Assembly: GCA_031835245.1 (NCBI GenBank)
Contig: JAVKOQ010000103.1
Location: forward strand, 110,884 to 174,883
From: Balamuthia mandrillaris
Taxonomy: Eukaryota; Discosea; Longamoebia; Balamuthiidae
Direction of reading: 5' to 3'
DNA length: 64,000 nucleotides
The translations under genes were made by a program, and so were the position numbers. This document shows, one piece after another, positions 21,273 through 43,809 of the stretch (position 1 is its first letter; each line of letters starts with the position of its first letter). The notes under the pieces were generated by a model. The model had not been told where the DNA came from, did no database searches, and worked only from the letters and a program-made list of their open reading frames with translations.

Positions 21273-21277
21273 ACTTG

Positions 21278-21308
<31 letters not shown>

Positions 21309-21558: not shown

Positions 21559-22503
21559 TTAAAGACGGGCAGCATGTGCGGGACAGGAACCGGAGGAGGA
21601 AGGGCGGGTGATGGTGCCCTTGATGAGGCCTTGCGGCTCGGAAACGGGGGTCAGGATTTCATTGCTCCACTCGTGCTGCAAGCCAAAGCGGGTGAGGTCC
21701 ACCGTCCAGTTGTGGATGTTGGGCAAGGTGAAGGAAATGGACTGCACGTGCACAAAGTCCTTCAAGACTGCGTCCCCAATGGCGTACACGGTCTCTTGCA
21801 CGGAGCGGCTGTATCGCTCGGCAAAGAGACGGCAGGTGTTGCGAACCACTCCATTCCATACGGCAGTAAAGTCTATTTGGTGGGGAGGGGCGTTGTAGGT
21901 CCACGTGGCCTCCACCTGGGTGCGGAGCAGGCGGTCTTTGACCTCAGGCAAGGTGGTGTAGCGGTCCTTGTGGAAGCCAACGAAGCCAGAGCCGCTCGTC
22001 TTGAGGAGCTCCAGGTTCCTGAGGCCAGAGACCACCTGGATGGGGCGAGGGCCAGCGTCGAGGCCAGCAGCGCCCTTGCTGCTGGAGATCAGAGCGGTGC
22101 GCACCTCCCTACGAGGGGCAAAGGAGTGGGAGTGGGGCTGTCCAGCCACCACCAGCCGCTCCCACAGCTGCTCCTCTATGTAGGCCTCTACGGTGTGTAT
22201 GTGGGAGTACTCCTCCAAAAAGTGTTGCACCAGGCGCACTCCGAACGTCTCTATGTGGGTGATGGGGTCTTTCTTGGCCAGAACGTAGATGGTGTTCTTG
22301 ACCGTGTCTGTGGGTACCACAGCCGAGTTATCACCGGTGAGGTAAGAGGCGTCCAGACCCTCTCCTTGCAGCAGGACGCGCACGTTGAGGTCCCTGACCT
22401 GCTCCTCTCCGCCACCCTCCTTCCTCGTCACCTTCAACAAGCGCACATGTCGCTTGCCGTACTCGTTACCCGATAAATAAGCTGCGGTACTGCTGCTTGC
22501 CAT
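21559..22503 (-). CDS. UOX: Urate oxidase (uricase), peroxisomal
   Basis: Single exon, 314 residues, normal length. Landmarks are EYGKRHVRLLKV with the catalytic Lys near the N-terminus, VVPTDTVKNTIYVLAK carrying the catalytic Thr-Asp, SGFVGFHKDRYTTLPEVKDRLLRT, YSRSVQETVYAIGDAVL with the conserved Gln that binds the purine, and LPNIHNWTVDL with the catalytic Asn. The protein oxidises urate with O2 to 5-hydroxyisourate. The last three residues are ARL, an acceptable type-1 peroxisomal targeting signal, so a peroxisomal site is likely. Confidence 0.95.
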   Translation of the reverse strand: MASSSTAAYLSGNEYGKRHVRLLKVTRKEGGGEEQVRDLNVRVLLQGEGLDASYLTGDNSAVVPTDTVKNTIYVLAKKDPITHIETFGVRLVQHFLEEYSHIHTVEAYIEEQLWERLVVAGQPHSHSFAPRREVRTALISSSKGAAGLDAGPRPIQVVSGLRNLELLKTSGSGFVGFHKDRYTTLPEVKDRLLRTQVEATWTYNAPPHQIDFTAVWNGVVRNTCRLFAERYSRSVQETVYAIGDAVLKDFVHVQSISFTLPNIHNWTVDLTRFGLQHEWSNEILTPVSEPQGLIKGTITRPSSSGSCPAHAARL

Positions 22504-22918
22504 CGTGGTGCTAATAACAACAATGTTGTGGTGTTGTGGGAGGAAGAAAAGAAAGAAGAAGAAGAAGAAGAAAGGCTTTCAAAACCCTTTTTTCTCTCTC
22601 TCTCTCTCTTTTTTTTTGATAAAAAGAGGGCGACTTGAAGTCGCTGGGAGGACTCTTAAAAGTCGTTACAAAGATGGCTAAGGGTTAGGGTTCAGGCCAC
22701 AAGGGGGGTTACTAGGGCTACATGTGTCCTCTTCCTTCCACCCCGTGTCGACGGAGGTTTTAAGGCGAACCCTCTTTAGGCCCTCCGGCAATTAAAAAAT
22801 AAGGAGAAAAGAGAGAAAGGAGGAGGAGGAGCTGCGATACACTAGCTAGCTGCGGGCGACGAGCAGCTTTCCTTCGCCACTCATTTCGTCAGCAGTCAGG
22901 ATAAGGCCGATCTCTGCC
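22504..22918. promoter_or_regulatory. Divergent promoter uricase / BipA with TTAGGG pair
   Basis: 415 bp. Contains a GAA repeat (22555-22571), a CT tract (22593-22608) and CTAAGGGTTAGGGTT at 22678-22692, a two-unit telomere-like motif (telo-box on the other strand). Nothing else was recognised. Confidence 0.4.
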
Positions 22919-25900
22919 ATGTGGTCTCACAGCATCCGCAACGGGAACTGGCGTTCCTTGCCCAGTTTGTCAAGTCCGCGTTCTTTTTTGGGGAGTTGCA
23001 CCAGCGGGCTGCTGGGGCGGAGCTGCGGCCCAAACCTCGGCCCAAGCCTTCCTGCGGAAACTCGCCGACATGCTTCCTCATGCACACCATTTTCCGTCTC
23101 GCGGGGTGCACCGCCCTCCGCAACACCAACAACAAAGCCAGTGGGAGGACTGCCCACACTGGGCCGCAACGGCCGGTTTGATGGTCTCCACGCTCTTCGC
23201 ACGTTCAGTACTCACTACAAAACGTGCGGTAGGCTAGACCCCATGAAGCGGACCGGCTGGCAGACAGGTGGCAACCTTCGCTTTGTTCGTTTTTTCTGCA
23301 CCAGTGGCACCGGCGGAATTAGCCGCCTCCGCAACGTGGCCATCATCGCTCACGTCGATCACGGAAAGGTACGCACTCACGGACAGCACTCCCATCTGTT
23401 GCAACACTTGCTCATCACCACCCCTCCTACCAAACAACAAACTACCACATAGACAAGCTTGGTTGACACCTTATTGAAACACAGTGGTAGTAACTTTGCT
23501 GATGGAGAACGTGTCATGGTTAGTTTGCCAACCCCTCCTTATTCGTGAGCGAGGGCGATGCTAAGTTTTGTCTTGGCTGCTCTTGAAATTCTAACAGGAT
23601 TCCAACGAGCTGGAGAAAGAGCGAGGAATCACTATCCTATCCAAACAAACTAGCGTTTATTACAAAGACTACAAAATCAACATTGTTGATACCCCCGGTG
23701 AGTTCTTGTTCTTTCTGCTTTCTTTGTTGTTGTCTTATCTTCTTCTTGTTCTTCTTCTTCTTGTTCTTCTTCTTGTTCTTCTTCGTTCTTCTTCGTTCTT
23801 CGTTCTTCGTTCTTCGTTCTTCGTTCTTCGTTCTTCGTTCTTCGTTCTTCGTTCTTCGTTCTTCGTTCTTCGTTCTTGTTCTTGTTCTTGTTCTTGTTCT
23901 TGTTCTTGTTCTTGTTCTTGTTCTTGTTCTTGTTCTTGTTCTTCTTGTCCGTATTTTGTTAAACCATCGTCTCCAGCGGAGTATACTAACCTCTAAGGTG
24001 TCACCGCTTTAGGGCACGGCGATTTTGGAGGGGAGGTAGAACGGGTGCTCGGAATGGTAGATGGTGTACTTCTGTTGGTAGACGCTTCCGAGGTTTGCAT
24101 TCACGTCAATGCTCTTCATGAAGACTGCGACTAACCAGTATCACAGGGACCCATGACCCAAACTAAATACGTGCTTTCAAAGGCTCTACAAAGGAACCTG
24201 CGACCCATTGTGGTTCTCAACAAAATGGACCGTGAGACTGCTCGACCAGAGGACGTAGAAACAGAAGTACGTTCTTGCCTCTCTCCAGACAGCACTGCAT
24301 TTTTTTTGATAATCCACAACGTTTGAGTGTTGTGATGCTACTCTGACATGTTGCGGTTGCCATTAGATTTTTGATCTTTTTGTGAACTTGAGTGCATCTG
24401 ATGAACAGTTGAGCTATCCTACTTTATATGCCTCGGCCAGAGAGAGTAAGGATACACCTCCTACCAGTCGTCAATCATTATTAACACATTTTCCCCCTCT
24501 CCCTTGCCCTCCATCCCTGAAGGCTGGGCTGTGGCGAACAAGGAAGACGAAAGAGTAGATATGACACCTGTCTTTGAGGCGATCATAAACAACGGTACGT
24601 CTGTGAGCTCAATCTTAATTTATCATGTCCATCACTGATCGGTTATTGTTTATGATGATTGCAGTCCCGCCGCCAAATGTTGATCCTAGTAAACCGTTTT
24701 CAATGCTGATTACCACTTTGGAGTATGATCCTCACTTAGGCAGACTATTAATTGGTCGCGTGGAAGGCGGGCGAGTTGTGGCTGGCTCACCCTTGCGCTC
24801 CCTTTCCTTGGAAGGAAAGGAGCTGGAATCAGGTATGCCTCTTCTTTTGTTGTTTTCCTCTATGTCTTTTCTAATTTTGCTTGCCAACCCTCACAATCGG
24901 AAAACAAACATGAAACAGGAAAGGCGTTGAAGGTGTTGGGTAGGCAGGGCCTGCAGCGCAAACCACTAGACGTTGGCGAATGCGGAGATATCATTGCTGT
25001 CGCAGGTTTTGCAAATACTTCGGTGACAGACACTCTTTGTGACCCTTCTGTCACAGAGCCTATCAAAGCAGTTCCGATTGATCCTCCTGTTCTCTCCATG
25101 GTATTTGGAGTCAACGACTCCCCTATGGCTGGCAAAGATGGAACCAAAGTAACATCGACAGCCCTAAAAGCTCGCATCCTCCGAGAGCTTGAAAGCAATG
25201 TGACCATTGAAATGGAGGAATTGCCAGAGGAAGGCAAGATGGAAATCAAAGGAAGAGGAGAATTGCAGCTTGCGATTCTCATCGAGAACCTTAGGAGAGA
25301 AGGCTTTGAGCTCTCAGTCTCTCCGCCCAAAGTACTTTTCCAGTACGATGAAGATGGCACCAAGCTTGAACCACAGGAAGAACTTACAATTGATGTGGAT
25401 GGTGAATTCAGTGGACCAATTATTGAAAAACTTTGTATGTACACCCCCAATTGTAGTTCTCTTGGTGCCTTTTGCTTACCTCTGTTTGTTCCTCTTAGCT
25501 AATCGCAAGGCTGAACTGTTGGAGATGAAAAATGAAGGAAAGAAGGCCCGCATGACATTTTTGTGTCCCTCCAGAGCTCTCATTGGCTTTAGGGTAAGGC
25601 ATCAACTGCTGGAGTTTACTTGTAGCTGAACTCACCACGATGTCCTGGAACTACCAACAGGCAGAGATGACCAGACTATGCAGAGGTTCCCTGGTCTTAC
25701 ACCATACATTTCATTCGTGGGTTCCTTACAAAGGGCCAATTGATAACATGCGAAAGGGGGCTCTTGTTTCCAATGCGACAGGCGTGGCAACAACCTACGC
25801 TCTTAACCTTCTTGAGCCTCGCGGAACTCTTTTTATCCATCCTCAAACCCAAGTTTATATGGGTGAGTGCTAACAACTTCATCTCAATATCTGTTACTGA

Positions 25901-26280
25901 TGCAGACAAATACCTTCTTCCAGGTATGATTGTGGGAGAAAGTGCCAAAAAGGGGGACCTCGATGTAAATCCCGTCAAAGCGAAGCAACTCTCTAACGTG
26001 CGATCGGTGCAGAAAGAGGAGAATGTGCGCCTAACTCCTCCTCGCATTCTCAGCTTAGAGGAAGCCATAACCTATGTGCAAGGTACTTGCCCAGTGACAT
26101 CGGCATGCCGTTTTTTTATTTTGCCAAAATGGTCTATTTTTCCCTCCCTAACCACTTCAATCCACATTTCCAGAGGACGAACTTGTGGAAATAACGCCAA
26201 AGCACGTAAGAATGAGGAAAGAAGTCTTGGATACTTCTCTCAGAGAACAGGCTGCCCGAAGGAAGAAAAAAGCGAACTGA
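22919..26280 (+). CDS. BipA/TypA-family translational GTPase, organelle-targeted
   Basis: Thirteen exons: 22919-23368, 23453-23518, 23598-23697, 24013-24092, 24147-24266, 24367-24445, 24523-24594, 24665-24832, 24919-25434, 25499-25593, 25661-25862, 25924-26082, 26174-26280; phases agree (737 residues). About 130 N-terminal residues are Arg/Ser-rich without acidic residues, fitting a mitochondrial presequence. G motifs are AHVDHGKTSLVD (G1, split by intron 1), ERGITI (G2), DTPGHGDF (G3), NKMD (G4) and SARES (G5). Domain II, the EF-G-like domain III ([23 protein letters not shown]) and the BipA-specific C-terminus ([55 protein letters not shown]) follow. The family binds ribosomes and aids assembly or stress translation. 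No chloroplast is implied. Confidence 0.93.
23740..23943. repeat. Minisatellite block in BipA intron 3
   Basis: Within intron 23698-24012: CTT-rich lead, then a heptamer GTTCTTC array (about 23790-23873), then a hexamer GTTCTT array (about 23874-23941). The pyrimidine-rich strand is the coding strand. Confidence 0.9.
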
Positions 26281-26519
26281 AGAGGGTGCATCCAAGACCT
26301 CCACGCTTTGCCTACCCGAATAAACCACTGCCACAAAACAAGAATTACATCACTTTGCCCAGCCATCTCTCTGCAGGGGTGATAGATTAGGGGCTGTTGA
26401 TCGTTTGCTTGTTGTTGTTTCGCTTTGTTGTAGTTCGGGAGTTTTTGGACTCGAATTGCAAATAACCAAAAAATCCGGTTGGTGGGCTGGTTGACCCGCA
26501 AGCCGAACACAAAATCTTT

Positions 26520-29500
26520 ATGAACTTACCCAAATTGAGGTGTGCTCTATATAACCCAGAAGAAGAAGAAGAAGAACAAAGCTCCAAAGCAGTGAAGCAG
26601 GAAGGAATGAGCGGTCGCTCGGTGCGAAATGGTAGTGGTGGTAGCTGCTGCGGGGAGAGCTTCTGCGCCAAAACTACGGCTACCACCGTAAACCAACTAC
26701 TATGGCAGGCGGTGAGGCGGTTCGGCGAACGCCCGGCGTTGGCTTGGGAACAACAAGGCAAGTCCTGCAGAATGACCTATTCGGAGTTAGGGGAGGAGGT
26801 GCTGCGACTAGCCAAACAGCTACAGAGACAGGGCGTTACAAGGAACAGTCGGGTGGCCATCCTAGCAGAACGGCGCGCCGAACTTATTTTGGCAGAAGCT
26901 GCTGTTATATGCGCAGGAGGAGCCTTTTGTTGTTTAGACCCGGAAGCTCCTCCCCAACGCAACCAATTGATTCTTGCAGACCTTCAACCCTCCGTCTTCC
27001 TCTGTCAGCAGCATCTGCTGAACAAACTTAGTCCTGGTGCAGCCCAATGGAAGACCGTGGTCCTTCCCTTGGAGACCTTCTGTTGCAAACAAACGAGCAG
27101 CCAAAGAACCGAGGTAACCATTCACAACAACAACAACAACGTAGATAAGGAGCTACTAGAAGAAGAGAAAGAAGAAGACATTCAAGTAAACAACCGGCCG
27201 GAGGACTTGGCTTATCTGGTGTATACCTCCGGGACGACCGGCAAACCGAAAGGAGTTATGGTAACGCACCAGAATCTGGTCAACTTTGTGGAGAGCAGCA
27301 TGAGAAGGACGTGCCACCACCGGAAGCAACTCCATCGGACTACCAGTATCGCTAGGCGAACGGAGGAAGAGGCAGATAAGCATGAAGGAGAGCAGGAGGA
27401 GCACCATTGGTACTATGAAGAGGGGGATCGTACGCTGCCCACTGCAGCAGTGCAATTTGATATTCATGTGATGGAGGTGTGGTGTGCGCTTTCGGCTGGC
27501 GCTTCCTTATTTCTTATAGCCAAGTGGGAGGTGCTGGACAGCAGCTTTCTTGCGCAATATCTCGGCAAGCACAACGTCAACAAGATGTTTATGGCAACGG
27601 GCTTGTTTCATCGGTACGCCAACACGAGGCCAGATATTCTCGGTCAACTGGAGGCATTGTGTGTAGGAGGGGACTCCCTTTCGGCCTCCTTGGCTATGGC
27701 TGTAGCCAACAGCTATCCCGGATTGCGGCTGCTAAATGCCTACGGCCCTTCGGAGACCACGCTTTGGGCGTCCTACTTCCGCGTGCGCCCTGGACGTCAC
27801 TATGAGAGGATTCCTATTGGCTTCCCTTTGCACAACTACGTGATCTACGTCCTCGACGAAGAGATGCGGCCCCTCTCCTCGCACCACCAATACCGGGAGA
27901 AGGAGAAAGAAGAGAGACAAACGCAGCGGCAGCAGGTTGGCGAGATTGTGATAGGCGGGCTTGGAGTGGCGACCGGCTATTTCAACCTTCCAGAGCTGAC
28001 TGCCACCAAGTTCCTTCCGGATCCGTTTGCGGCAACAGCAGGCCGTGAACCACAACGTATGTATCGCACCGGTGACCTTGGCTACTGGTTGCCAGATGGA
28101 TGTCTAGCCTTCGCAGGAAGGGCCGATGATCAGTTAAAAATCCGGGGCAACCGTATCGAGCTCGGCGAGATCGAAACTCAACTCAATCAGCATGCCGGTG
28201 TGGCGGCAGCCTGCGTCTGCGTACAGCAGACGATAACACTTGCGGCTACAGCAACCGGTACAACCCACGGCAACGAAGGTGAAGAGAAACGCTTGATAGC
28301 CTGTGTGGTGCCACAGAAGAGCAACCATGCACGGGAAGAGCAGGTTTCGAAGGAGGAGCTGTTGCGCCACATGAAAGAAAGACTTCCAGAGTATATGCTG
28401 CCGAAGCACATCTTTTTTGCAGAGCATTTGCCTACTAATTTAAACGGTAAAGTGGACAGAAACCAGGTCCTCAGCATGTGGGAGGAAAACCAGGAAGAGG
28501 AGGATCTCCGAACGAGCTGCACACCGTTGCAGCTGGATGATGGCGTAGAGGCAAGACGTGACCAGTCATCTGTGGGGTGCATGTTGCGAGACTTGTGGCA
28601 AAGCTGCCTCCATGATACAGCTGGTACGATCGGCATGGATGCTAACTTCTTCCAAATGGGCGGAGACTCGTTTGCATGCATGGCACTTGCCGCCAAAGCC
28701 AACGAAAAGGGGCTTCCCCTTACCCCACTCCTCATCAATGAGCATCCAACACTAAGAGCTCAGCTGCAGTACTTGCTTTCCTTGCCTGCTCAAGTATCAA
28801 CGACTGGTACAACGCGCGAAGACTACTTGCTGAAAGTTCGACTCACGCCTGCACAACAACGACTGGCAGACATAGTGTTGAAATCTCACGATAGTGTGGA
28901 ATACCTTGTACCGGCAGCTCCTTCCCAACGAGCTCTACTTATGATGTCACTACGGCAGCCAAGCAGCGGCCTCATGCAGCTTGTTGCCTCCACTGTTTCT
29001 TCTTCTTCTTCTTCTTCTTCTTCTTCTTCTTCGTCTGGAGTGGTATTCGATATTCATGCCTTCCACAGGGCCTGGGAGATAACCTGCGCGACCCATCCTG
29101 CCCTCCGTGCAAGCTTTCACTGGACTGGCGACATGGCAACTGTTCTCCAAGCCGTTCATAACAAAGTGAAACTTCCAAGTTTTCCTGTGTTTGAGGTTGG
29201 CTCTGAAGAGAAACTCGAAGAGCGGGTGCAACGCTATATCGCTGTGGATAGGAAACGAGGAATGGACTTCAAGGTAGCTCCATTGCTCCGCATGGCTATA
29301 TTCAAGAGAGGCCCTCGTTGCACATTCGTTTGGACCTACCACCACGTTTCACTTGATGGCACATCAACTTCCATCGTCTTCCAAGACTTTGTTTCGTTGT
29401 ACACCACCTTGGTCAGATCATCACCACCATCAACATCACCTTCAAATGACCCGAAACGACTGGAAACGCAAACCTCCCTCATCGAAGAGACAGCCCTCAT

Positions 29501-32500
29501 TTCCCCCAGCAACTTACAAGGCCAACAATTCAGCGCGGAACAGGAAACAAGAGCAGAGCAGTTTTGGAAGGAGAGAATGGCTGGTGCCCCGACTGAACCA
29601 TTGATACCGCTAGACTGCACCAGCAGCACCCCTCCAATAGCGGAGCAGCTGGTCGTCCATCACCCACTCCGACCAGAACTGGTGATACGATTGAAGCAGT
29701 GGTGCAACAGGAATGCAATGACTCTTGCTACCGTAACCTTTGGTGCTTGGCTGTTGCTTGGCTTCGTAGAAGATTGCCTTAGTGGAAAGAGGCGCAAGGC
29801 TCTGGGATCTCTCATCAACTTTGCAGGACGGCCTTCAGAAAGTCTGTCGGCCGCCGCACCCAAAGCTGTGAGCATGCTAGTTAATCCTCTCCCTGTTCAT
29901 TTGTCGGTGGACGAGGAGGATCGCCTTCTTCGTTGGCTGAGGCAGCTCCGCACCGCGGTGGTGCAGGCCCAGGAGTATGAGTTGTTTTCTCTCGCTAAGG
30001 CACTCTCCTTCGCCAACAAGCAAACCTTAGGTCTCGTGCGACATTGCTTCAATTGGGACGGCTCACCATTAGAGTACCGAACGGTGGAGTGCTTTTCTAC
30101 TCCTTCTTCTTCTACTGCTGCCTCTTGCGCTTTCCGAGTCGAACGTATAGAAGAGCGTACAGGATTCGGGCTGGCCATGAATGTAGCGGACCATGGAGGC
30201 TCCACCCTCACTGTCACAGTGGAGTGGAATAACGGAATGTACCATCAGCAGACCATTCATAAACAGCTAGTACGGTTTGAATGGTTGTTGGAAGGTGTTG
30301 TTGCTGTAGACAAAGATGATGATCCTTCATTGAGACGTCTCATCGATAACATAAGTGCTGCATCTGCACATTTACCCATTCGGCTTCCGCTTGGACTCAC
30401 TCCTTCTGAGCTAGCTGTACTTCGTTACCGGCGAGGGCCAAAGAGGGCGAGGGTTGCTTCATATTTAGAAGAGAGTATGTGGAAGCTTCAAGTTGCCAAA
30501 GTCAAGGGTACTTTGAAGCCTTCTGCTCTGCATCGGTGTCTACACGAGCTGGCTCGTCGCCATCCAATACTTCGCACTGTCTTCTACCATTGCGAAGACA
30601 ACGAGGAAGAGCTGTTGCGTCGCACCATTCCTCAGGAAGACGTCGACGTATCATTTCAAGCGCAAGATCTTTCCTATCTGAGCAAGGGACAACAAGCAGC
30701 TAAATTTGAAGAGGCGCGGGCCTCGGCCAAACAGCTCCTTCAGCTTGGGCAAGGCGACAACCATAACATGTTCGGCATCATTGCTTTGCGTCTTGGCAAG
30801 TTACGGCATTGCTTGCTTCTATGTTATCACGAGCTTCTCCTCGACCAAAAATCTACAGTGCTCTTCTGGCAACAGCTTTCTTTGTTGCTGAACGGCAAAG
30901 ATGGCAACCTCCAAGGCGAACCTAAAAAAGATGCCTCTTCTTCTTTTTTCTCCATTCATCAAGAGAGAGGGATATCAGCCGTTTTACTGTTGCCATTATT
31001 CAACAGAACACGTTTAAGAGGAAATTATGAGAAGATATGCAATCCGCAAACGAGTTTGAGGAAGCCTCCACTCCCTGCGCAACTACCTTATAGTGTACCA
31101 CCTTCTTCATTATCAGAGAGTGAAGCAGTGACGAGACGGCCTACTGCTACTGTTGTGCGCACTCTTCTTGTCCCCAATATAAATGCTGAAGAGGGAGCAC
31201 AACAGCTGTTAGCGGCTCTGCTCATACTCCTCCATAGATACAACACAGAAACCGATTGTGTGGCAGCCACGCTTGTTCCTTCCGGGCTCGTGCCTCGTGG
31301 GACCGATAGCCATACTGCAGCTGTTTTGGGATGCTTTGCTGCTCCTCGTATCCTAGCAGCAAATATCCCATCAGCCAACTGCCGTGCGGAGGACGTTATA
31401 CGACAGGTGCAGAGGGCTCTTTTGAATTCCGGTGCTGAAGATGACGAATACGATGACCAATTGCAGCAGCACTCATGCGACTATTCATCCGGGATTCAAC
31501 ATTGCCGTGGCAATAACGTGGAGTTGCTATTCCACCCATACGTTGAGATCCCGAGGGAGGAATGCGCCCCTCTACGCCTTTCACTCCTGCCTTCCCGTTC
31601 CATGACGCTTCTCTCTGGATCCACTGAGGTTGCCTTCCATATCTCAGAAGAAAGACGCGGCGGCTCTCCTGTGGGAACGCTGGAGCTTGCTCTACACTAC
31701 GATACGCGTCTGTTTTCCAGCAGAGCGGCTGCATTCATGACCGACCACTACGCCAATGTTCTGAGCAGCATTTTGGCTGACCCAGCAGTACTGCTGGGCG
31801 ACATACCGCTGCTCTCCGCTGAGGAAAACCAACTCTTGGATAGCTTTAGTACCTGCAATGAGGACCACAAGATGCAAAACGCTGCAGCTGCCGTGCTGGT
31901 GCAGCACCTCTTTGAAAAAAACGTTGCTTCTCTACCCGACAGAACCGCAGCATACGTTGCAGAAGGAGATATCTCAGTCTCATACGACCAACTCAACTAC
32001 AAAGCAGAAGCGATCAAGGAGATGCTATGGGATGTGTGCGGAAGACAGAAGCGAGTGGTTGCACTTTTTTTCAGGCGGTCTGTTGGTTTGTTGGCCTCAC
32101 AGCTGGCTGTACTCAAGGCTGGCTTTGTGGTTCTTACTCTGGACCCCGAAGCACCGCTGCAACGCAATGCTGGCATCCTAGAAGACGCCAACTGCCAAGT
32201 AATCCTCCACATGGATGGACTGAAGAACAGTTTGCCATCGCCTACTGTCAACGGTAGCGATGATCCTCCTCTTGTGCAGCTGTGCATTGATTGCCTGGGG
32301 GAACCTGTTGTAGCCGAGTCTTCTGGCAAAGGGCGGCATCTCTGTAAGCCTACTGCTGCTGCCGCTCTTCATCATGAAGTCGCCATGCTGGTATTCACCT
32401 CTGGAACCACGGGGCGACCAAAAGGCATTCAGGTCACTCATCAAAACATGGTGAGCATGTTTAGCAACAAGTTTCAATTCCATGTGGAGGAAGGGGATAG

Positions 32501-35500
32501 AGTGCTGGCCACCACTGCTGTGCAGTTTGACATGAGCGTGCTGGAGGGGCTGGGCACTCTATGCGGAGGAGGCAGCGTAGTTTTGGTGGACAAAGAGTCT
32601 ATTCTGGATTCTCGCTCTATGGCGAAGGTTATCAAGCAGCACAAGATAACCAAGATGGTTTTTGTCAGTGCACTGTTCAACCACCATGCACGAGAGAGAC
32701 CCGAAATGTTTGCAGGACTGAAGCAAATCATACTTGGCGGAGACGAGGTGCTGCCCAAGCCTGTACTGCGGGTGCTGGAGACCAACCCAAGCCTGGTCAT
32801 CACTCCTGGTTATGGACCCACCGAGTGCACAATGGTCTCTACCTATTACTCGATGGACCCTGCCTTGTTGAGCAGCATGCAGACTTCAGTGCCTATCGGC
32901 AGACCCATTGACAACGCAGTGGCCTACGTAGTGGACAGCTATTTCAACCGCGTGCCCGTTGGTGTTTGCGGGGAATTGCTCATAGGCGGCAGAGGTGTTA
33001 CCAGAGGCTACCTTGGCAATGAGGAGCTGACTGTCCGCAAGTTCGTTCCCAACCCATTTGCCTCCTCGGCTGTTGGAGGAGCAACGGGAGGGAGTGCCAT
33101 GGCTCCGGTGTTGTACCGCACTGGGGACAAGGTGAAATGGCTGTCTGATGGCAATATCCTCTTTGTTGGCAGAAATGATGGGCAACTCAAGATAAGAGGA
33201 AACCGTGTGGAATTGGGAGAGATCGTCCGCGCTCTGCAAGACCACCCACTTGTTGGGGACGTTGCTGTGGTAGCCTGCGACGGGGAAGGTCCTGCACCTA
33301 CAGCAGAAAAGCATTTGGTAGCCTTTGTAGTCAGGAAAGGAAAGATTGCCACGGGCAGCGGTATCACTGCTCCGCTAGAAGCTGCCATGCAAGAAGACTT
33401 CAGGACGTTTTTAAGAGGACGCCTTCCCAGCTACATGACGCCACGCAATTTCTTCTCTATCGACCGTATCCCAATGACCCTTAACCAGAAGGTGGATGCT
33501 GCCAAGCTGAGAGATATTGCTCACATCAAGCTGCGTGAAGAGATGGAGGAAAACGATATCGGGTCGCTTCATCCGCACGGATTAGAGAATGGTGGTGAAG
33601 CCTGCAAGAATCCCTGCGTGAATGGAGCCCCAAAAGATTGGATCACCTCTATCTCGGGAGGTCGTCCGGAGCGCCACATCGCGGTGCGAAAGAAGCTGCA
33701 CTCACTGTGGAAAGGGGTCATTGGCCATCCAGTGGGTCCGGAGGACAAATTTTTTGAGGTTGGTGGTGAGTCCCTCATGGTATCAAGGCTCTGCCAACAG
33801 ATCGCCAACGCTTTCGGGCTTGATGAAGACGAGGACCTCATGGGTGTTTTCTTTGAGCGGCCGACTATTGCCGGCATGGAGAAGCACGTATTACAACGTT
33901 TTGAAGCTAAAACAGCAACAGGAGAAACGCATCAGCTATTGCAACCATCCAACGCTGGTAGTATGACACAAACAATCAGCAAAATGCAACCTGAGTCGAC
34001 GCCTACAGCCAGCTTTCCACCAGCGACTCACTCTGTTGATAACAAGGAAGGAAAGGAGAAAAAAGAAAAGAAGCAAGCAATGGGCAATGTAGAATCCACA
34101 CACATAGCAATAGTGGGTATGGGATTTAGAGGTCCCAAGGCTAGCAATTACCAAGAGTTGTGGGAGAACCTCAAGAATGGGCAGGATTGCATTACTAGGT
34201 TTACCACAGCTGAACTGAAGGGGCATGTCTCAGATGAGGCCCTCTCTCATCCCTCCTATGTAAAGGCAAGGGGGTGGGTCGAGGATGCTCTTCAGTTTGA
34301 CCCACAGTTCTTCAACATTCCGGAGGAGGAAGCTTGCGCCATGAGTCCCCAACACTGGATGTTTTTGGAAATGGCTGCGACTGCCCTGAACGACGCTGGC
34401 CACCCCAATCCATCCCTTCTCAGGACGGAGAAGAAGCTTACTGGAGTATTTGTTGGAGCTGCGGACAGCCACAGTGATGACAGTGGGTATAGCAACGGTG
34501 AGGACGAAAAAGAGGAGGAAGAGGAGGGAACTGGTACCTGCCGGAAGAACGAGACGAAGAGGAGGACTCCAGCAGAGGAAACCAAGCAAAGCATGCTACG
34601 CTCTAACCACTTTATAGCCTCCCGTGTGGCATACCACCTGGACTTGGATGGACCAGCAGTAAGCGTGCAGGCGGCCTGTGCCTCAGCTTTGGTGGCTGTG
34701 CATCAGGCTTGTTCCGCTCTGAACAACGGTGAATGTGACATAGCAGTAGCTGGCGGAGTGGAAGCTGCCCACAAGGAAAAGGAGGGCTACTTTGTGGCAA
34801 CTACGAGCCTTTCCAAGGATGGGGTGTGCCGGCCCTTTGACACCCAGGCAGGCGGCTGTGTGCCTGGTAATGGCTGCGGTGCTGTGGTACTTCGACGACT
34901 GCAGGACGCTCTTGCTGATGAGAATCACATCTATGCTGTGATAAGGGGCTCTGCCACCAAGAATGATGGGGCAGCAGGAAAGATGGGCTATTATTGTCCT
35001 GGCGTGCAGGGCATCGCCTCCACTATTGAACACGCCATTCGTGTTGCTGGCCTGCGCCCTCAAGACATTTCTTTTGTGGAGACAAATGGTACAGCTGTAC
35101 CTTTAAGTGATTCCATTGAGATTCAAGCCCTTCGCAAAGTATTTGTTGAGGGCACTGCCACCAAGGACGGACAGACTAAATACCAGATGGAGCCCCTTCA
35201 TCAGCACCGTTCTCAATATTGTGGTAGAGAAGACAGCAGGCAGCATCCTCATGGCCATATCGCCTTGGGAGCTATCAAATCCAACATTGGTCATCTTGGA
35301 GCAGCTTCAGGTATTGCTGCCCTCATCAAAACTGTTTTATGCCTCTACCATGATACAATTGTCCCAACGGTAAACCATTCTTCTTCTCATGCCAATCTCC
35401 GCTTGGAGAGCTCTCCATTCTTTGTGCCTACAAAATGCGAGGCCTGGCCTCTTCCTACTGTTCATTCTCACTTGGGTAAGGCAGCTGGAGACGAAACAAG

Positions 35501-35768
35501 AACACTTTTTGCAGGAGTAACTGCAATTGGTAGTGGAGGCACTAATGTCCATGTTGTACTGCAAAATACCCCTTTTCTACCAAGAAGAGGAGTTTCTCTG
35601 AGTGCTGACTCCTCCTTACAAGAAAGGAGACCCAACATCCCTCCCCTTTGCTTCAACAGGGTATCAATGTCCTCTTTATTGTGTAAACATCAGATTGCTA
35701 TTAAGGCATCAGACATATTTGGTATATCACAAAAGGAGGAAATTGCAGCCTTTGAACTTTATGAGTAA
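26520..35768 (+). CDS. Hybrid NRPS-ketosynthase, A-T-C-C*-A-T-KS, intronless
   Basis: One uninterrupted frame of 3082 residues. Adenylation 1 (about 58-690): VYTSGTTGKPKGV (from about 234), NAYGPSETT, YRTGDLG, RGNRIELGEIE and LNGKVDR. Carrier 1: MGGDSF, Ser717. Condensation 1 (about 770-1270): HHVSLDG at about 941, intact HHxxxDG. Condensation-like 2 (about 1293-1780): YHELLLDQ at the same place, so probably inactive. Adenylation 2 (about 1790-2350): VFTSGTTGRPKG, PGYGPTECT, YRTGDK, RGNRVELGEI and LNQKVD. Carrier 2: VGGESL, Ser2418. Ketosynthase (about 2521-3015): Cys2720 in AACASA, Asn2856 in ETNGTAV where the catalytic His is expected, His2925 in SNIGH. No acyltransferase, reductase, release domain or phosphopantetheinyl transferase follows. 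Low-complexity inserts lie in A1 and before C1 (Ser12 from a CTT repeat). The likely product is a short lipo- or acyl-peptide precursor, substrates unknown. Absence of introns suggests horizontal transfer. The last 70 or so residues resemble no domain. Confidence 0.9.
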   Translation: MNLPKLRCALYNPEEEEEEQSSKAVKQEGMSGRSVRNGSGGSCCGESFCAKTTATTVNQLLWQAVRRFGERPALAWEQQGKSCRMTYSELGEEVLRLAKQLQRQGVTRNSRVAILAERRAELILAEAAVICAGGAFCCLDPEAPPQRNQLILADLQPSVFLCQQHLLNKLSPGAAQWKTVVLPLETFCCKQTSSQRTEVTIHNNNNNVDKELLEEEKEEDIQVNNRPEDLAYLVYTSGTTGKPKGVMVTHQNLVNFVESSMRRTCHHRKQLHRTTSIARRTEEEADKHEGEQEEHHWYYEEGDRTLPTAAVQFDIHVMEVWCALSAGASLFLIAKWEVLDSSFLAQYLGKHNVNKMFMATGLFHRYANTRPDILGQLEALCVGGDSLSASLAMAVANSYPGLRLLNAYGPSETTLWASYFRVRPGRHYERIPIGFPLHNYVIYVLDEEMRPLSSHHQYREKEKEERQTQRQQVGEIVIGGLGVATGYFNLPELTATKFLPDPFAATAGREPQRMYRTGDLGYWLPDGCLAFAGRADDQLKIRGNRIELGEIETQLNQHAGVAAACVCVQQTITLAATATGTTHGNEGEEKRLIACVVPQKSNHAREEQVSKEELLRHMKERLPEYMLPKHIFFAEHLPTNLNGKVDRNQVLSMWEENQEEEDLRTSCTPLQLDDGVEARRDQSSVGCMLRDLWQSCLHDTAGTIGMDANFFQMGGDSFACMALAAKANEKGLPLTPLLINEHPTLRAQLQYLLSLPAQVSTTGTTREDYLLKVRLTPAQQRLADIVLKSHDSVEYLVPAAPSQRALLMMSLRQPSSGLMQLVASTVSSSSSSSSSSSSSGVVFDIHAFHRAWEITCATHPALRASFHWTGDMATVLQAVHNKVKLPSFPVFEVGSEEKLEERVQRYIAVDRKRGMDFKVAPLLRMAIFKRGPRCTFVWTYHHVSLDGTSTSIVFQDFVSLYTTLVRSSPPSTSPSNDPKRLETQTSLIEETALISPSNLQGQQFSAEQETRAEQFWKERMAGAPTEPLIPLDCTSSTPPIAEQLVVHHPLRPELVIRLKQWCNRNAMTLATVTFGAWLLLGFVEDCLSGKRRKALGSLINFAGRPSESLSAAAPKAVSMLVNPLPVHLSVDEEDRLLRWLRQLRTAVVQAQEYELFSLAKALSFANKQTLGLVRHCFNWDGSPLEYRTVECFSTPSSSTAASCAFRVERIEERTGFGLAMNVADHGGSTLTVTVEWNNGMYHQQTIHKQLVRFEWLLEGVVAVDKDDDPSLRRLIDNISAASAHLPIRLPLGLTPSELAVLRYRRGPKRARVASYLEESMWKLQVAKVKGTLKPSALHRCLHELARRHPILRTVFYHCEDNEEELLRRTIPQEDVDVSFQAQDLSYLSKGQQAAKFEEARASAKQLLQLGQGDNHNMFGIIALRLGKLRHCLLLCYHELLLDQKSTVLFWQQLSLLLNGKDGNLQGEPKKDASSSFFSIHQERGISAVLLLPLFNRTRLRGNYEKICNPQTSLRKPPLPAQLPYSVPPSSLSESEAVTRRPTATVVRTLLVPNINAEEGAQQLLAALLILLHRYNTETDCVAATLVPSGLVPRGTDSHTAAVLGCFAAPRILAANIPSANCRAEDVIRQVQRALLNSGAEDDEYDDQLQQHSCDYSSGIQHCRGNNVELLFHPYVEIPREECAPLRLSLLPSRSMTLLSGSTEVAFHISEERRGGSPVGTLELALHYDTRLFSSRAAAFMTDHYANVLSSILADPAVLLGDIPLLSAEENQLLDSFSTCNEDHKMQNAAAAVLVQHLFEKNVASLPDRTAAYVAEGDISVSYDQLNYKAEAIKEMLWDVCGRQKRVVALFFRRSVGLLASQLAVLKAGFVVLTLDPEAPLQRNAGILEDANCQVILHMDGLKNSLPSPTVNGSDDPPLVQLCIDCLGEPVVAESSGKGRHLCKPTAAAALHHEVAMLVFTSGTTGRPKGIQVTHQNMVSMFSNKFQFHVEEGDRVLATTAVQFDMSVLEGLGTLCGGGSVVLVDKESILDSRSMAKVIKQHKITKMVFVSALFNHHARERPEMFAGLKQIILGGDEVLPKPVLRVLETNPSLVITPGYGPTECTMVSTYYSMDPALLSSMQTSVPIGRPIDNAVAYVVDSYFNRVPVGVCGELLIGGRGVTRGYLGNEELTVRKFVPNPFASSAVGGATGGSAMAPVLYRTGDKVKWLSDGNILFVGRNDGQLKIRGNRVELGEIVRALQDHPLVGDVAVVACDGEGPAPTAEKHLVAFVVRKGKIATGSGITAPLEAAMQEDFRTFLRGRLPSYMTPRNFFSIDRIPMTLNQKVDAAKLRDIAHIKLREEMEENDIGSLHPHGLENGGEACKNPCVNGAPKDWITSISGGRPERHIAVRKKLHSLWKGVIGHPVGPEDKFFEVGGESLMVSRLCQQIANAFGLDEDEDLMGVFFERPTIAGMEKHVLQRFEAKTATGETHQLLQPSNAGSMTQTISKMQPESTPTASFPPATHSVDNKEGKEKKEKKQAMGNVESTHIAIVGMGFRGPKASNYQELWENLKNGQDCITRFTTAELKGHVSDEALSHPSYVKARGWVEDALQFDPQFFNIPEEEACAMSPQHWMFLEMAATALNDAGHPNPSLLRTEKKLTGVFVGAADSHSDDSGYSNGEDEKEEEEEGTGTCRKNETKRRTPAEETKQSMLRSNHFIASRVAYHLDLDGPAVSVQAACASALVAVHQACSALNNGECDIAVAGGVEAAHKEKEGYFVATTSLSKDGVCRPFDTQAGGCVPGNGCGAVVLRRLQDALADENHIYAVIRGSATKNDGAAGKMGYYCPGVQGIASTIEHAIRVAGLRPQDISFVETNGTAVPLSDSIEIQALRKVFVEGTATKDGQTKYQMEPLHQHRSQYCGREDSRQHPHGHIALGAIKSNIGHLGAASGIAALIKTVLCLYHDTIVPTVNHSSSHANLRLESSPFFVPTKCEAWPLPTVHSHLGKAAGDETRTLFAGVTAIGSGGTNVHVVLQNTPFLPRRGVSLSADSSLQERRPNIPPLCFNRVSMSSLLCKHQIAIKASDIFGISQKEEIAAFELYE
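28998..29034. repeat. (TTC)n run inside the NRPS coding sequence
   Basis: About 12 TTC units, read in frame as poly-Ser between carrier 1 and condensation 1. The insertion is of the same simple-sequence kind as in host genes nearby. Confidence 0.9.
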
Positions 35769-36922
35769 AGACATAAAAAACCTTATACCTTGTTGTAAAC
35801 ATTTATTTCTCTTTTTTTGCATTGTTAAGAGATGATTATTGAGAATAAGAATAGAGTTGAGGAAATAAAAAAAATTAAGGTTAATTAGGGATATTATTTT
35901 TTAAGGGGAAAAACAAATATGTTGCAAAAAAAAAAGACAATAAGAAGAAACAAGTCAAATATTTTAGCCAAATTTGCCCTAATAATTGCCCAAACCCAAC
36001 ATCGAAAAGTATTTAGTGTACATTTACAAAAGGAACATATAACTTCTTCAATAGAATAAACCTTTATAAAATAAAAGGTCCAAAGTTGTTGAAAAAGGCG
36101 AAAAACATGAACAGATGAGGCCAAAACGTATTATTCAAACGGAACAAGGGAACAAAGAATGTTAAGAGGGAAAGGTGTGATGTGAATGAAAACAAAATTA
36201 ACTAACTAAAAGAAAGAGAGAAGGAAGCAATGGAATAAAAGGAAGAAGCCTAGTAACGACAGGAAGAAAGGGAAGGAAAAGGGGCAATGGAGCTAGTATG
36301 TTGAGAGTATTTCTCAACAAAGTTAATACTTTACTTGCAATGGTCTTTTAAAGGTATGTATTATCAACTACGTCCATGATAAAAGAGGAGTTTCCAAGGA
36401 CACACCAAAGTAGGCACACCAACTATGAGCTGTAACAATAAATAAGTGTCTCAGCATGTTGGACTTCCTGTCAACACTTTCCTTGGATACCCCAAGTTTT
36501 CTTGCTTTTTTTTATTTTTCCTTTTTCCTTACAACATATTCAAAGCACACTTTCGTCCAACAGAAACACTAGACCAAAGTGTGTTAGACATGCAAGATGA
36601 ATATAACACAGAATAGAGGAAATAAGAAAAAAAATATGAAGGAAAGAAAGATATAGAAAATAATACAAAGCTGGAGCCAATAAACTCTCCATTTTGCTCA
36701 GCCCATCTGTGTAAGCAATGTCTTCTAGTGTATTAGTATATTTAATAGCTATGTTGTCACTGATGAATACAATGCATTAATGGAGTTGCCTTTTTCAGCA
36801 TTTGCTTTTTGTAGATAAAATGACAAGGTCTTATGGATCACTGTTTATAAGCTACTATGTGTAAGTTTTCTAACATTTTTAAGGCATAGCCATTGCCAGG
36901 CAGCCAAAATAATTAACAAACA
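35769..36922. other. AT-rich, CpG-poor DNA after the NRPS gene
   Basis: No convincing gene. A stretch at about 36503-36555 (TTATTTTTCC...TTCAAAGCACAC) recurs at about 52076-52128, so it is a dispersed repeat. Composition matches the rest of the repeat island. Confidence 0.45.
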
Positions 36923-36935
36923 TATATATATTCTT

Positions 36936-37069
36936 GAATAACAATTGGGAAGGCATTGAGGATGAGGGAGTAAGAGAAGTAAGAGTACACTATGTATGTA
37001 CAATGCTTACTTTTTATGTATAGATTGGTGTTGCTCTCAGAGCAAATAAACTTCTTATTACTACTACAC
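36936..37069 (+). mobile_element. LINE copy E: 5'-truncated 3' end fragment
   Basis: 134 bp identical in type to the last part of the full-length LINE at 38911-43809: AACAATTGGGAAGGCATTGA ... CTCAGAGCAAATAAAC, then TTATTACTACTAC. It is flanked by a perfect 13-bp target-site duplication TATATATATTCTT at 36923-36935 and 37070-37082, which proves retrotransposition of a truncated copy. Confidence 0.9.
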
Positions 37070-37082
37070 TATATATATTCTT

Positions 37083-38900
37083 TCCATCAAAATTAATAAA
37101 CAAACATCAATTTGCAGAAAAAGCTGAGTTAAACAAAAAGTGTGTGAAGTGAACAGATTAGGTCTTCAACAATCATCCACTTTAGTAACCATAATGATAT
37201 CTTGAGAAGTTGCTAGTGAGGGATTGTTGAAAACACATTGTGAAACCAAAGATGTAAAATAGCAGAGAATCATCAGAATAAAGTTGTTGTATTAGGTGAA
37301 TCAGAAATGGAACTGCAAATAGACTCATCTTGAATGGAAGTTGCAGCTCTAAAGGAGATATATATTCAAGGAATCAAAGTTCTAATATTATCATGAGTAA
37401 AGTGCTTTATCTCAAATACTATTGGTCCTGGTATTATAGAGGTTACTTTTTCCTTAATGTCTGCAATGGTATTGGTTCATGCCAACAGTGCTTGATCACA
37501 AAGGAATGCTGCTTTTTTCTTTTTTGTTACCTCCCTAATCTGTTTTATCATGAAGAACCCCACGTAAAAGTGATTTCTACTTGTGATTACTTTTTCTAAC
37601 AGTTGCAGAATCCTTCATTCCACACCCTTTCTGAGCAAGCTGACTACCTCAAAGCATCTTAATACAGGCTTGTTCATCAAGAAAGTGGATTTCTGATGTG
37701 TGTTGAATCCAACCTTAGGAATAAAAGAGTCAATGATGAGTGCATTCAAGAGAATAGAGGAAGGACAACGAGAGTGAATCTCTGATGTTGCTTCAAAGTA
37801 CACCAAGAGAAAGGGAAAAGAGGAAAAAGGAAGGATGGAGGGATATAAAAGAAAGAAGAGCCAAGGGTCTGGGATGGATCCAACATGAGGAGTCTTAAGA
37901 TAAGTGTTGGTGATTTTGCCAATGTATGTAACTTGAATTCTGGTTTAGGCAAGTGTGAAAAAATGGCCTGCTTCTTCATGACCAGCAGCAGTATCAAAAG
38001 CGCCAAAGTAGGAATCTGCTCGTTTCACAAAGCTTCTTCCTGTAGGAAGGTAGGTGGCCATTCATAATAATGTTGCTATTGTTGTCTCTGATTTCACCTC
38101 CTCTTCTTCTCTTTGTTGTTTCATGGAACATGCTGCATAATGAAACTTTGAACTATCCACCAAGCTCCAAAGCTTGACTCCAACTGGTCATGGCTTTTGT
38201 TTAATAACCAACCACTTTATGTCGACATCTAGCTTTGGTTGCAACTAATGATTCATCTACAACAACATTTTTGAAGGGCTCTCAATAATGCTGAAAGCAG
38301 TCGTTAAGGTGGTTGATGAAGTCATCAATGTCGACTCATAATGACGACTTGAGCTGGTACTGATCATAGCCAATCGTCCTTCAGATAAATTTGTTTCCCC
38401 AAAAAGCATGTCCTTTTTTCCAATAGTTGGATTCCTGTCGGGCAGGTGCAAAGCTCATAACGAGGACAACAGAAAGAAAGCAAAGGAAGGAGTGGCAGGT
38501 GAAGGCAGGAAGCTTGTGGTGGCTTCAAGCACTTGCCTGGGGTCGTTGTTTGGCCTGTGCTCGCAACACTGCTTTTTCTTGAGAGGGGAAGATTGTGCTG
38601 CTCAAGAAAATCTGAGAAGAACAGCATAAAGATACCCTTGCGTGTTTTTGTAGCATCAGGTAGAATGTTTTTGGGTCCTGAAATGGTTGTTTGACAGGGA
38701 AAAGAGGGCAACGCTTTCTCTTCTATTGACCAGCCATGTTTTTCTCTCCATTTGCTGTCTTCTTTAGCAATGCGTTGCCTTTTGAGGGCTGCTTTTTGTT
38801 GGTGATCTTCTGTCCCTTTTTCTTTTTCATTCTCTTTCTGCTTCTCTTTTTCGAGTTGTTGGGTGTGTTTTTTTTTGTGTTTTCATGACACAAGGAGATT
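37083..38900. other. Repeat-island DNA with possible decayed transposase
   Basis: AT-rich. On the minus strand between about 38350 and 37610 there are broken open frames. One reads FINHLNDCFQHY, then a stop, then EPFKNVVVDESLVATKARC, vaguely like the DES...K.R core of piggyBac-type DDE transposases. No frame is intact, no terminal repeats were found, and the assignment is weak. Confidence 0.25.
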
Positions 38901-38910
38901 TATTGCAGGT
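38901..38910. repeat. Target-site duplication, LINE copy A (3' side)
   Basis: TATTGCAGGT, repeated exactly at 43810-43819. It directly abuts the trinucleotide-tailed 3' end of the element. Confidence 0.9.
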
Positions 38911-39144
38911 AGTAGTAGTAGTAGTAATAAGAAGTTTATTTGCTCTGAGAGCAACACCAATCTATATATAAAAAGTAAGCATTGTACATAGTGTACTCTT
39001 ACTTCTCTTACTCCCTCATCCTCCAATGCCTTCCCAATTGTTACTCAATTCACAAGTGAAAGGTGTTGAATGAGATTTCAGACCAACTTTGTATCATCTA
39101 GCTATCCTTTTCTTTCCCTTTCCTTTCTTCTCTTTTCCTTGCTA

Positions 39145-42100
39145 TTACATTACTTCCAAAGATTGATAAAGTGCAGAAGAACTTCCATGCTTCCAACTTG
39201 CTCTTGCTGCCCATAATCTCCAGACTCGTTTACAACTTTGCTTACATTGTTCCATCTCTTGAGCTCTGTTACATTTCTTTCCACTTGACAGGAGGTTTGT
39301 TGTACAGTCTTCAATAATCAGCTTTCTGACTTGTTCTTCATTTCCATTGTCCACACTCCAGATTCTAAAGCGATCTTCCCAAAGGTTAGGACACCTTAAC
39401 AGGAAGTGTTCCGCTGTTTCTTCCTCAGCATCACATGCAGGGCACTTGCTATCCTCCTCAGACTGCTGAATGGCTCCCCACTTTTTTCCAATGGGCAGTC
39501 CACCACAACAAATAGCATTCATCAAACATTCTTTCCTTGGGTTGGTAATCACTAAGCTCCGTTGTTGTCCAACCAAACATCTTCCATTTGTCAAGAAGTT
39601 ATGCCATAGCCATGCTCTTGTTCCTCTTTCTCCTTCAGCTGCATACTCCACCTTGGCTACTCGAGTTAAGGTCCTCATCCTCTTGGCTTTCTTTTCAACA
39701 ACAGTCGTCCTGTCACCTCCCTCACCTTCATTCTTCTCCCCTTCCTCTTCACTTGCTTGGCTTACCTCTTCAAGTAGCTCAAAGTGGCCATCTTGTCTCT
39801 CAGCATGATGAATTACTGCTTGTCTTTCCAACTCACAGTAGGCCTTGATGGTCAACCAGCCCAATTCTGCTCTACAAACCCCTGCCACAGTCCTTCAATG
39901 AACTTGCAATACGCTTCTTGCTGTCTCATTCCACACAGCTTCGATCTTCTTCCACCATGATTTGGAAAGCTCTGTCATACATAGTCCATATGACAAGGTA
40001 GACTTGACAATAGCCTCTGCAGCAATCTGGGCAGTGCGTGTACCAAGGCCTTGGGCAATGGCTCCCCGCTGCCTAAGGCTGTAGAGGGCTTGCTTGGCCT
40101 TGGTGATCCTCTCCTTGGCATGAGTTGTCCATTCCCCACTTTCTTCAAACCACAGTCCCAGGTACTTGGCCTCCTTCACACGTTTCACAGCCTCCCCCTT
40201 CAGTCTCTACTCTTGAAAATGAGCCTTCTTTCCTTGTACTAGCACTACTGATTTCTTTGCATTGAACTGAAGTCCCAGAGCATTCACTGCCTCCACTGCT
40301 ACATTCAATCTTCTCTGAAGCTCAAATGGATCGCTGGCCACCACTGCCAAGTCATCAGCAAACAGCAAGCAAACATTCCTTGCTTTATCTCCTCTTTCTT
40401 TCTCCTCTGCTGCTTGTAGCTTTCTTGCCACCACATCAATGTATACATTGAACAAGAATGGAGACAAAACTCCTCCTTGCTTAACTCCTCTTTCCACCAG
40501 AAATTCCTCCGAGAGCTGCCCATTCATGCGAATAACACTCGTCATACCACGGTACCACTCTGTAATGATACCCACTGCTGCCTCTTCAGCTCCTCTTTTG
40601 CGTAAGGTCCTTGCCAGTATGTCATGGTCGAGCATGTCATATGCCTTGCTGATATCCAACAGAGCAATATAGGTGCGTTCTTTGCTTCTCTTCATCAGGC
40701 ATTTCTTCAACCGCCACACCTGATCCATGACCCCCCTTCCTTTTCTAAATCCACCCTGGCAATTACTTATCCACCCTTGCTCTCTTGCTTGTATGTTCAA
40801 TTGTACCAAGATAGCTCCTTCAAACACCTTGGCTGCATTGCATAGGAGAGTAATACCTCTATAGTTTGCTGGATTCTGGGAATCTCCTGCCTTATGCAAG
40901 GGAATAACCACCCCCTGTTTCCACTCCTTGGGGAATATGCCTTGGTTCTCAATGGCCTTGATCAGCGTCCAAGTTGCATCTTGCACATGTTTACCTCCAT
41001 ACTTCATCATTTCCCCATCAATATTGTCCACCCCAGCTGCTTTGCCCACCCTCAATCTTTTCCTCCATGCAAGATTAAAACTCTCCTTCTTAAGCCAGTT
41101 ACTACCAGACCAAGGTAGTCCTTCTGGACCTGCTTCCTCTCGATGCAAGCTCCTAATGGAAGAATCCTTCCTTCCCAGCTTTGCCCAATGTTCCTTGAAG
41201 GCTGCCGTGCTACCATGGTGCTCCCTAACTGCTTTGGGCTCTGCTCTACGCTTTGCCACTATCCTCCACATGTTGCCGATCCATTTCTGCATTTCCTTGA
41301 TGTTCTCTTGTCTTTTCCACTTCATCCAGTCCCATTTGTTGGCTCTCCACAGCTTCACAAACCTTTTCCTGAGTTCCACAAATTCCTCTCTGGCCTTTCC
41401 ATCATTCTTTCCTTCTCTTAGCCACTGAGCATGGGCTGTCGCTACCTGCTTGTTCAAGGATGTTAACTCTGCTGTCCACCATGGCTTCCTTGCCCTGCTC
41501 GTTGTTGCTCCTATCAGTCTCCTTTCTCTACCAAACCATCTCATTGCACAATCCCACAATCCTTTTTTCCACTTGCTCCAAAGATCTTCAACAGTAGCTG
41601 CTCCCTCCCGTGTTTTCTTGACCATGGCCTTCCATTCCTCTCCTTTGAAGAAACGCTTGCACCCGCGTTTGTACTCCCTCCACCTCCTCTTGCGATCTTC
41701 CTCTGAGTAGGACTTCCACTTCCATCGTTCCATCCAAACCCCGCCGCAATTATCTGCTGAGTCCTTCAACTCGACTACCAGTGGTCGATGATCAGTCCAA
41801 GCTTGCCATCTGTCACCAACTACCTTGCCCGTCCATCCCCATGCTACCACATAGTCCACAATGCTCTTTCGTTTTCCAGCTCTCCATGTAAATACTGGCG
41901 CTTCCTCTTCGAGCTGAGGCAACGAGAGGGCCAGCCTTTTGAAAGCCTCCACCAACACCTTTCCTCTCGCGTTGTAAGTAGATTCACCTCTACCATTCCA
42001 TCCCTTTCCAACCCTGGCGTTCCAATCACCTCCAATAATCAGGGGTCTTCCTTCCTTGACCACGTCCAGGATTCTTTTCTCAATCGCAGCCAAGGTGACC

Positions 42101-43802: not shown

Positions 43803-43809
43803 TTTTTTC

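Follow-up and report, generated by a model that had tools for sequence, protein, structure and literature searches.

The NRPS-ketosynthase open frame and its domains

The window, a stretch of 64,000 nucleotides of Balamuthia mandrillaris DNA analysed here at full length, lies on contig C102 of an assembly of 64.8 Mb in 775 contigs. Between the BipA and CDC73 genes it carries an open frame of 3082 codons without an internal stop, in which Pfam recognised two AMP-binding domains, each with its C-terminal part, as well as two carriers, condensation matches and one ketosynthase (KS). The scores were far beyond chance (467 bits for AMP-binding, 212 for ketoacyl-synt and 172 for Condensation). A first-pass annotation, made from the letters of the window alone, had described a 3082-codon ORF with A, T, C and KS domains, and its coordinates, strand and domains are all borne out by the ORF and the Pfam matches. 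The architecture is A1-T1-C1-C2*-A2-T2-KS, where C2* is a degenerate condensation-like domain (Table 1). The Pfam search found no domain downstream of the KS, and neither AT nor ACP follows it. The likely start codon is Met30, because the first 29 codons are out of frame in the allele on contig C115, with which the alignment begins at Met30; in a partial copy on contig C197, as in the window itself, these 29 codons are read in frame.

Table 1. Features of the NRPS-KS gene and its surroundings (positions in the window; residues of the open frame)
Feature	Position	Strand	Basis
NRPS-KS open frame, 3082 codons; Met30 at 26607 is the likely start	26520..35768	+	
A1 adenylation domain with C-terminal part, residues 62-644, core motifs present	26703..28451	+	Pfam, motifs
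Low-complexity insert within A1: Asn run, Glu/Lys-rich	27105..27197	+	Base composition
Charged insert within A1; allelic length differences are multiples of three	27303..27419	+	Allele alignment
T1 carrier domain, residues 689-752, Ser717 in GGDS present	28584..28775	+	Pfam, motif
Poly-Ser run from TCT/TTC repeat; C115 allele 12 bases shorter	28998..29039	+	
C1 condensation domain, residues 841-1261, HHVSLDG present	29040..30302	+	Pfam, motif
C2* degenerate condensation-like, about residues 1286-1795, without HHxxxDG	30375..31904	+	
A2 adenylation domain, about residues 1796-2333, core motifs present	31905..33518	+	
T2 carrier domain, about residues 2370-2440, Ser2418 in GGES present	33627..33839	+	Pfam, motif
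Terminal KS, residues 2528-3018; Cys2720, Asn2856 in place of the first catalytic His, His2925	34101..35573	+	
Acid-rich stretch inside KS, partly of low predicted confidence	34482..34604	+	Model, composition
64-residue tail behind KS, then stop; stop identical in C115 allele	35574..35768	+	
Block of BipA region and NRPS 5' part, also on contig C197 at 99.4% identity	22838..27860	.	

The five core motifs tested are present in both A1 and A2, and the carrier serine is present in T1 and T2. By their core catalytic motifs, A1, A2, T1, T2 and C1 belong to the NRPS domains, but C2* does not: the HHxxxDG motif was looked for in C2* and not found, and Pfam recognises only the N-terminal third of it (E 4.9e-8). 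C2* also matches PDB entry 4tx2 ('Peptide synthetase, module 7') at E 7.4e-7. Protein P0310, considered as a relative with tandem C domains, covers the C1-C2* stretch at 23%, yet its arrangement differs and it was set aside; its C domains look active, because HHxxxDG-type motifs occur at 1218, 1702 and 2157. As regards the idea that C1 is an epimerisation domain, its 19 PDB matches look to us like C-domain proteins. The nine code positions of the two A domains read DIMFCGALW and DMLVIGGMV when set against a reference, with the lysine placed by motif.

Inserts, introns and codon usage

The first-pass annotation had described host-type simple-sequence inserts in the gene, and such inserts are indeed present and vary between the alleles. 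The poly-Ser run, attributed there to TTC repeats, does come from a simple repeat, which is however TCT/TTC. From Met30 to the stop, 16 of the 17 length differences between the window and C115 alleles are multiples of three, the exception lying in A1 of C115, and three low-complexity inserts contain 10-12% T, compared with 23-43% in six roughly bounded BipA introns. Because of the length differences in threes and the low T content, in-frame introns hidden in the inserts are unlikely. BipA had been called intron-rich, and introns were seen in it. The same neighbourhood holds an LRR ORF of 920 codons (window 58642-61404) that is also a single frame, as is a phosphopantetheinyl transferase (PPTase)-like locus elsewhere in the genome (423 codons). 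Since these two loci are single frames as well, the lack of introns adds little and is a weak argument for a bacterial origin of the NRPS-KS gene. GC3 is 0.525 in the NRPS-KS gene versus 0.632 in pooled host ORFs, with an RSCU correlation of 0.72.

Chromosomal location on two haplotypes

The NRPS-KS gene is integrated in the host chromosome: both assembled haplotypes have it in the same place, with BipA on one side and CDC73 on the other. Contig C115 is collinear with the window contig: identity is 91-96.5% in the matching upstream blocks before 16.2 kb, rises to ~100% between 16.3 and 26.5 kb except for a difference near 22.5-22.84 kb, and is ~97% in the NRPS gene itself; synteny resumes at 52.9 kb with CDC73 and the genes beyond. 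This collinearity along the window identifies C115 as the other haplotype and rules out its copy as a paralogue. The jump at the gene start, from a ~100% flank to a ~97% gene, was considered as a sign of insertion or of a bad join, and was rejected because the blocks further upstream are themselves divergent, which makes the 16.3-26.5 kb tract the exception.

Bacterial contamination or a misassembled junction would explain the bacterial look of the domains, and nothing further was found that speaks for it. We regard either as very unlikely, to the point of giving them next to no weight, because the two haplotypes share the junction and the genes on both sides of it. Simple repeats inside the gene and the presence of the BipA-NRPS junction on C197 as well also argue against contamination. 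The possibility that the junction with BipA is an assembly join, raised in the first-pass annotation, is likewise not supported by the assembled contigs, in which the junction is identical on two haplotypes.

The best protein match to the gene is P0002, 'Non-ribosomal peptide synthetase MassC [Balamuthia mandrillaris]' at NCBI, which over its full length is identical to what follows the frameshift in the C115 copy. This identity settles Balamuthia mandrillaris as the host; a search for light-harvesting proteins was negative. GenBank thus already contains a portion of the gene, under a name that, as we read it, was borrowed from a bacterial synthetase.

As a separate observation, two tracts of the window, 16300-26460 (~100%) and 52898-61410 (99.3%), resemble loss of heterozygosity when set beside the 91-96.5% of the upstream blocks.

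Selection between the alleles

The window and C115 alleles differ by 136 synonymous and 130 nonsynonymous changes over 2144 and 6967 sites, respectively, giving a dN/dS of 0.285 when computed in two pieces, with the C115 frameshift left unmended and 44 gapped codons excluded. By part, the values were 0.14 in T1, 0.164 in A2, 0.165 in A1, 0.21 in the KS, 0.29 in C1, 0.36 in the tail and 0.53 in the linker preceding the KS; C2* (0.43) and T2 (0.44) are weakly constrained. A binomial test against neutrality gave p ~2e-22 for the whole ORF, whereas the tail alone was not significant (p 0.10). Judged from these codon differences, the gene is evidently kept by purifying selection, despite the frameshift in one allele; this frameshift, located in A1 of C115, may be real or an assembly error.

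Decay of a formerly active line that is losing function would accommodate the C115 frameshift, the truncated C197 copy, the lost KS histidine and the degenerate C2*. We consider it improbable, given that dN/dS is low overall and lower still in A1, A2 and KS, that the frame of the window allele is intact, that the motifs are present and that the frameshift itself may not be real. The first-pass annotation mentions none of these four features (the loss of the KS histidine, the degenerate C2*, the C115 frameshift and the truncated third copy).

Origin of the gene

The KS and A domains best resemble bacterial NRPS/PKS proteins, at only ~30-42% identity; best-match identities were ~30-36% for the A domains and ~22-27% for C1 and C2*. 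Among the 120 matches listed in each of three protein searches, many of which are nameless, the names are bacterial except for Balamuthia and Mortierella alpina. Of 581 KS candidates confirmed in the GTDB collection, the best 80 are 34-40% identical and spread across many phyla, and all 80 of these loci are prokaryotic because the collection contains prokaryotes only.

Among the 57 PDB matches to the KS, the best bacterial single KS scores 282 bits; the fungal TAS1 ranks 24th with 199 bits and 'Probable polyketide synthase 16' ranks 50th with 166 bits. We take the latter, which has a Dictyostelium-style name, to be eukaryotic, and it and TAS1 are the only two of the 57 that we recognise as such. 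None of the PDB matches to A2 (n=38) or A1 (n=47) is one that we recognise as eukaryotic, the source being unfamiliar to us for a few. The fungal hybrid synthetase psoA is among the matches of the whole-protein PDB search (239 bits).

In a KS tree of 91 rows, the Balamuthia KS has a branch of 1.7 changes per site and is grouped in a seven-row set with Bacillus and Paenibacillus proteins; in a tree of 38 rows the branch is 2.25 changes per site, and the path-nearest proteins are two from the same Bacillus/Paenibacillus set. Both trees were built with no named eukaryotic KS, TAS1 being absent, and the placement in them is untrustworthy because the branch is very long.

The gene was likely acquired from bacteria long ago, as far as its sequence can tell. 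The acquisition from bacteria put forward in the first-pass annotation is therefore upheld insofar as KS and A resemble bacterial proteins best; the trees provide no supported nesting in a bacterial clade, and no donor emerged. Descent from an old NRPS family of eukaryotes or amoebozoans, retained here and lost elsewhere, would fit the long KS branch, the low identity to bacterial proteins and the sparse sampling of eukaryotes. It seems quite unlikely to us, since Mortierella alpina is the sole eukaryotic name besides Balamuthia among the listed relatives, and TAS1 and 'Probable polyketide synthase 16' score well below the best bacterial single KS in the PDB. Transfers of NRPS or hybrid genes from bacteria to eukaryotes, reported for bdelloid rotifers (PMC11258130) and for Ascomycota (PMC3226686), likewise involve a bacterial-type megasynthase in a eukaryote; in contrast to these cases, the Balamuthia host is an amoebozoan and the domain order is different.

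The terminal ketosynthase

When the Balamuthia KS is aligned with 174 KS domains, the position of the active Cys2720 is C in 168/174 and that of the second His, His2925, is H in 167/174. The position of Asn2856, which corresponds to the first His, is H in 155 of these domains, N in four and another residue in 15. Both alleles carry Cys2720 and Asn2856. The domain thus combines the two marks of a KS0, a lost HGTGT histidine and a retained active cysteine; according to passages of PMC5772238, KS0 domains are recognisable by the absence of HGTGT. Because the first catalytic His is replaced by Asn2856, the KS is predicted to be a non-elongating release or hand-over domain.

A model of the KS made from an 18-sequence alignment has the ketosynthase fold (mean pLDDT 80.5, pTM 0.85), with low confidence in an acid-rich loop (model residues 135-162). 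The bacterial hybrid-line domains ClbC, ClbI, OzmN KS2, OzmQ KS1 and SalC are nearest to it, both by predicted fold and by sequence (~35-40% identity), and nearer in sequence than TAS1. In the aligned OzmN KS2, ClbC and ClbI the first catalytic His is H, whereas in the Balamuthia KS it is Asn.

TAS1-type fungal NRPS-KS proteins resemble the Balamuthia protein in having a lone terminal KS after the NRPS part, with no AT or ACP behind it, as described in parts of PMC4640141 and PMC7698770; a non-elongating KS is known for TAS1 and predicted for Balamuthia. The same passages give the TAS1 KS triad as Cys-His-Asn, with H322 as the proposed base, as opposed to Cys-Asn-His (Cys2720, Asn2856, His2925) here, and the idea that the TAS1 KS has the same Asn was rejected on these grounds. 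In CalA3, parts of PMC10006239 describe a KS that releases the chain by forming an amide or by hydrolysis, H332 being the proposed base. Since the His used by both enzymes, the release KSs whose mechanism has been studied, is lost in Balamuthia, release by the TAS1/CalA3 route is not expected. An active TAS1-like cyclase, in which a Dieckmann-type ring closure would release a tetramic-acid-like product, is in our view unlikely: the base H322 of TAS1 is the very residue replaced here, TAS1 is described as C-A-PCP-KS taking acetoacetyl-CoA while the Balamuthia line (A-T-C-C*-A-T-KS) begins with A1, and bacterial hybrid KSs outscore TAS1.

The first His of HGTGT is missing from the Balamuthia KS just as it is from KS0 domains of trans-AT PKSs and some algal PKSs (passages of PMC5772238 and PMC4661987). 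For the terminal KS0s of green algal PKSs, in which His is replaced by Ser, release or transfer has been suggested, and these domains are also C-terminal in their proteins (PMC4661987, in part). Unlike these KS0s, the Balamuthia KS sits behind an NRPS module, and its active Cys is in the usual place, whereas it is shifted in the algal clade (same passages).

Partners elsewhere in the genome

Profile scans of the Balamuthia genome yielded three PPTase-like matches, among them the 423-codon frame mentioned above. In these scans, which work exon by exon so that split thioesterase or PKS genes can escape, no PF00975 thioesterase was found (10/14 control genomes were positive), acyltransferase was represented by one sub-cut-off fragment only (10/14 controls positive), and there was no strong full-length KS beyond the two alleles. 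The exon-wise scans thus revealed no machinery for release or elongation apart from this gene, which favours release or parking at the terminal KS. The KS might instead serve as a platform from which the dipeptide is passed to a separate trans-acting enzyme encoded outside the gene. This would be in line with the KS0s of bacterial lines, which according to passages of PMC7698770 mostly hand chains on, as in FR901464; we consider it somewhat unlikely in view of the thioesterase, acyltransferase and KS results of the exon-wise genome scan.

Shorter KS matches were seen on contigs C161/C275 and C81/C146/C217. On the latter three (L009-L011), a 3159-base stretch with the KS-like match is 100% identical among the contigs. 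A further A-domain-like gene, with a T-like match behind it, lies in a 1045-codon frame at C100:140806-141765 (L051).

Proposed working of the assembly line

The reading that we lean towards, with somewhat more confidence than doubt, is that of a single-exon, bacterial-type hybrid NRPS-KS gene, probably acquired from bacteria and maintained by selection, encoding a dipeptide line that ends in a non-elongating release or hand-over KS. A host phosphopantetheinyl transferase would arm T1 and T2, after which A1 would charge T1 with the first amino acid and A2 would charge T2 with the second. C1 would join the two amino acids, C2* having a structural part, and the dipeptide would move from T2 to Cys2720 of the terminal KS. 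In the absence of decarboxylative elongation, the chain would then be released, by hydrolysis or ring closure, or handed on. We infer the dipeptide logic, the role of the KS and the order of events. Points that weigh against this reading are the C115 frameshift and the truncated C197 copy, the weak constraint on C2* and T2 and the non-significant tail, the very long KS branch in the trees, and a GC3 lower than in pooled host ORFs.

More tentatively, and with doubt prevailing, we suggest that Balamuthia has a nonribosomal product of its own, made on a line ended by a Cys-Asn-His KS that would release without the His base proposed for TAS1 and CalA3. The gene would be old and strongly divergent between haplotypes, and the product possibly a weapon against microbes or a signal. 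A constrained bacterial-type synthetase would give the amoeba a small molecule of its own, which bears on how amoebae and bacteria compete and on the biology of this rare and dangerous pathogen. With Asn replacing the catalytic His, the terminal KS also allows the residue needs of a release KS to be tested directly.

The literature searched, which had subscription papers and preprints outside its scope, yielded no paper about an NRPS of Balamuthia. The main text of a 2023 functional annotation of Balamuthia does not contain 'peptide synthetase', 'polyketide' or 'secondary metabol' (PMC10471605). Both PMC7285305 and PMC12081367 mention Balamuthia and nonribosomal peptides; passages of the former concern Willaertia, and the latter is the one paper that also contains 'peptide synthetase'.

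A third, partial copy and repeats around the gene

The third copy occupies C197:78134-83147, matches the window from 22838 to 27860 and departs from the NRPS within A1. The surroundings of this block match contig C123 at 88-89%, and its two sides adjoin each other there: C123:133500-133850 (351 bases) represents the site without the block, with ~4 bases in place of the 5-kb block of C197. A target-site duplication was not observed at the C197/C123 block site. We read the block as probably a copied segment that was inserted at the DNA level on one haplotype.

A stretch of ~2.5 kb is unique to C115 (C115:33169-35684, corresponding to window 22781-22840), and it ends at the same point as the left end of the block copied to C197. 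On both contigs, the space from the NRPS stop to CDC73 is occupied by multi-copy sequence that includes an L1-like retrotransposon (window 36000-52000; C115:48700-61400). The L1-like element includes a reverse transcriptase and endonuclease ORF (40207-42480, minus strand), and its matches elsewhere in the genome look clustered.
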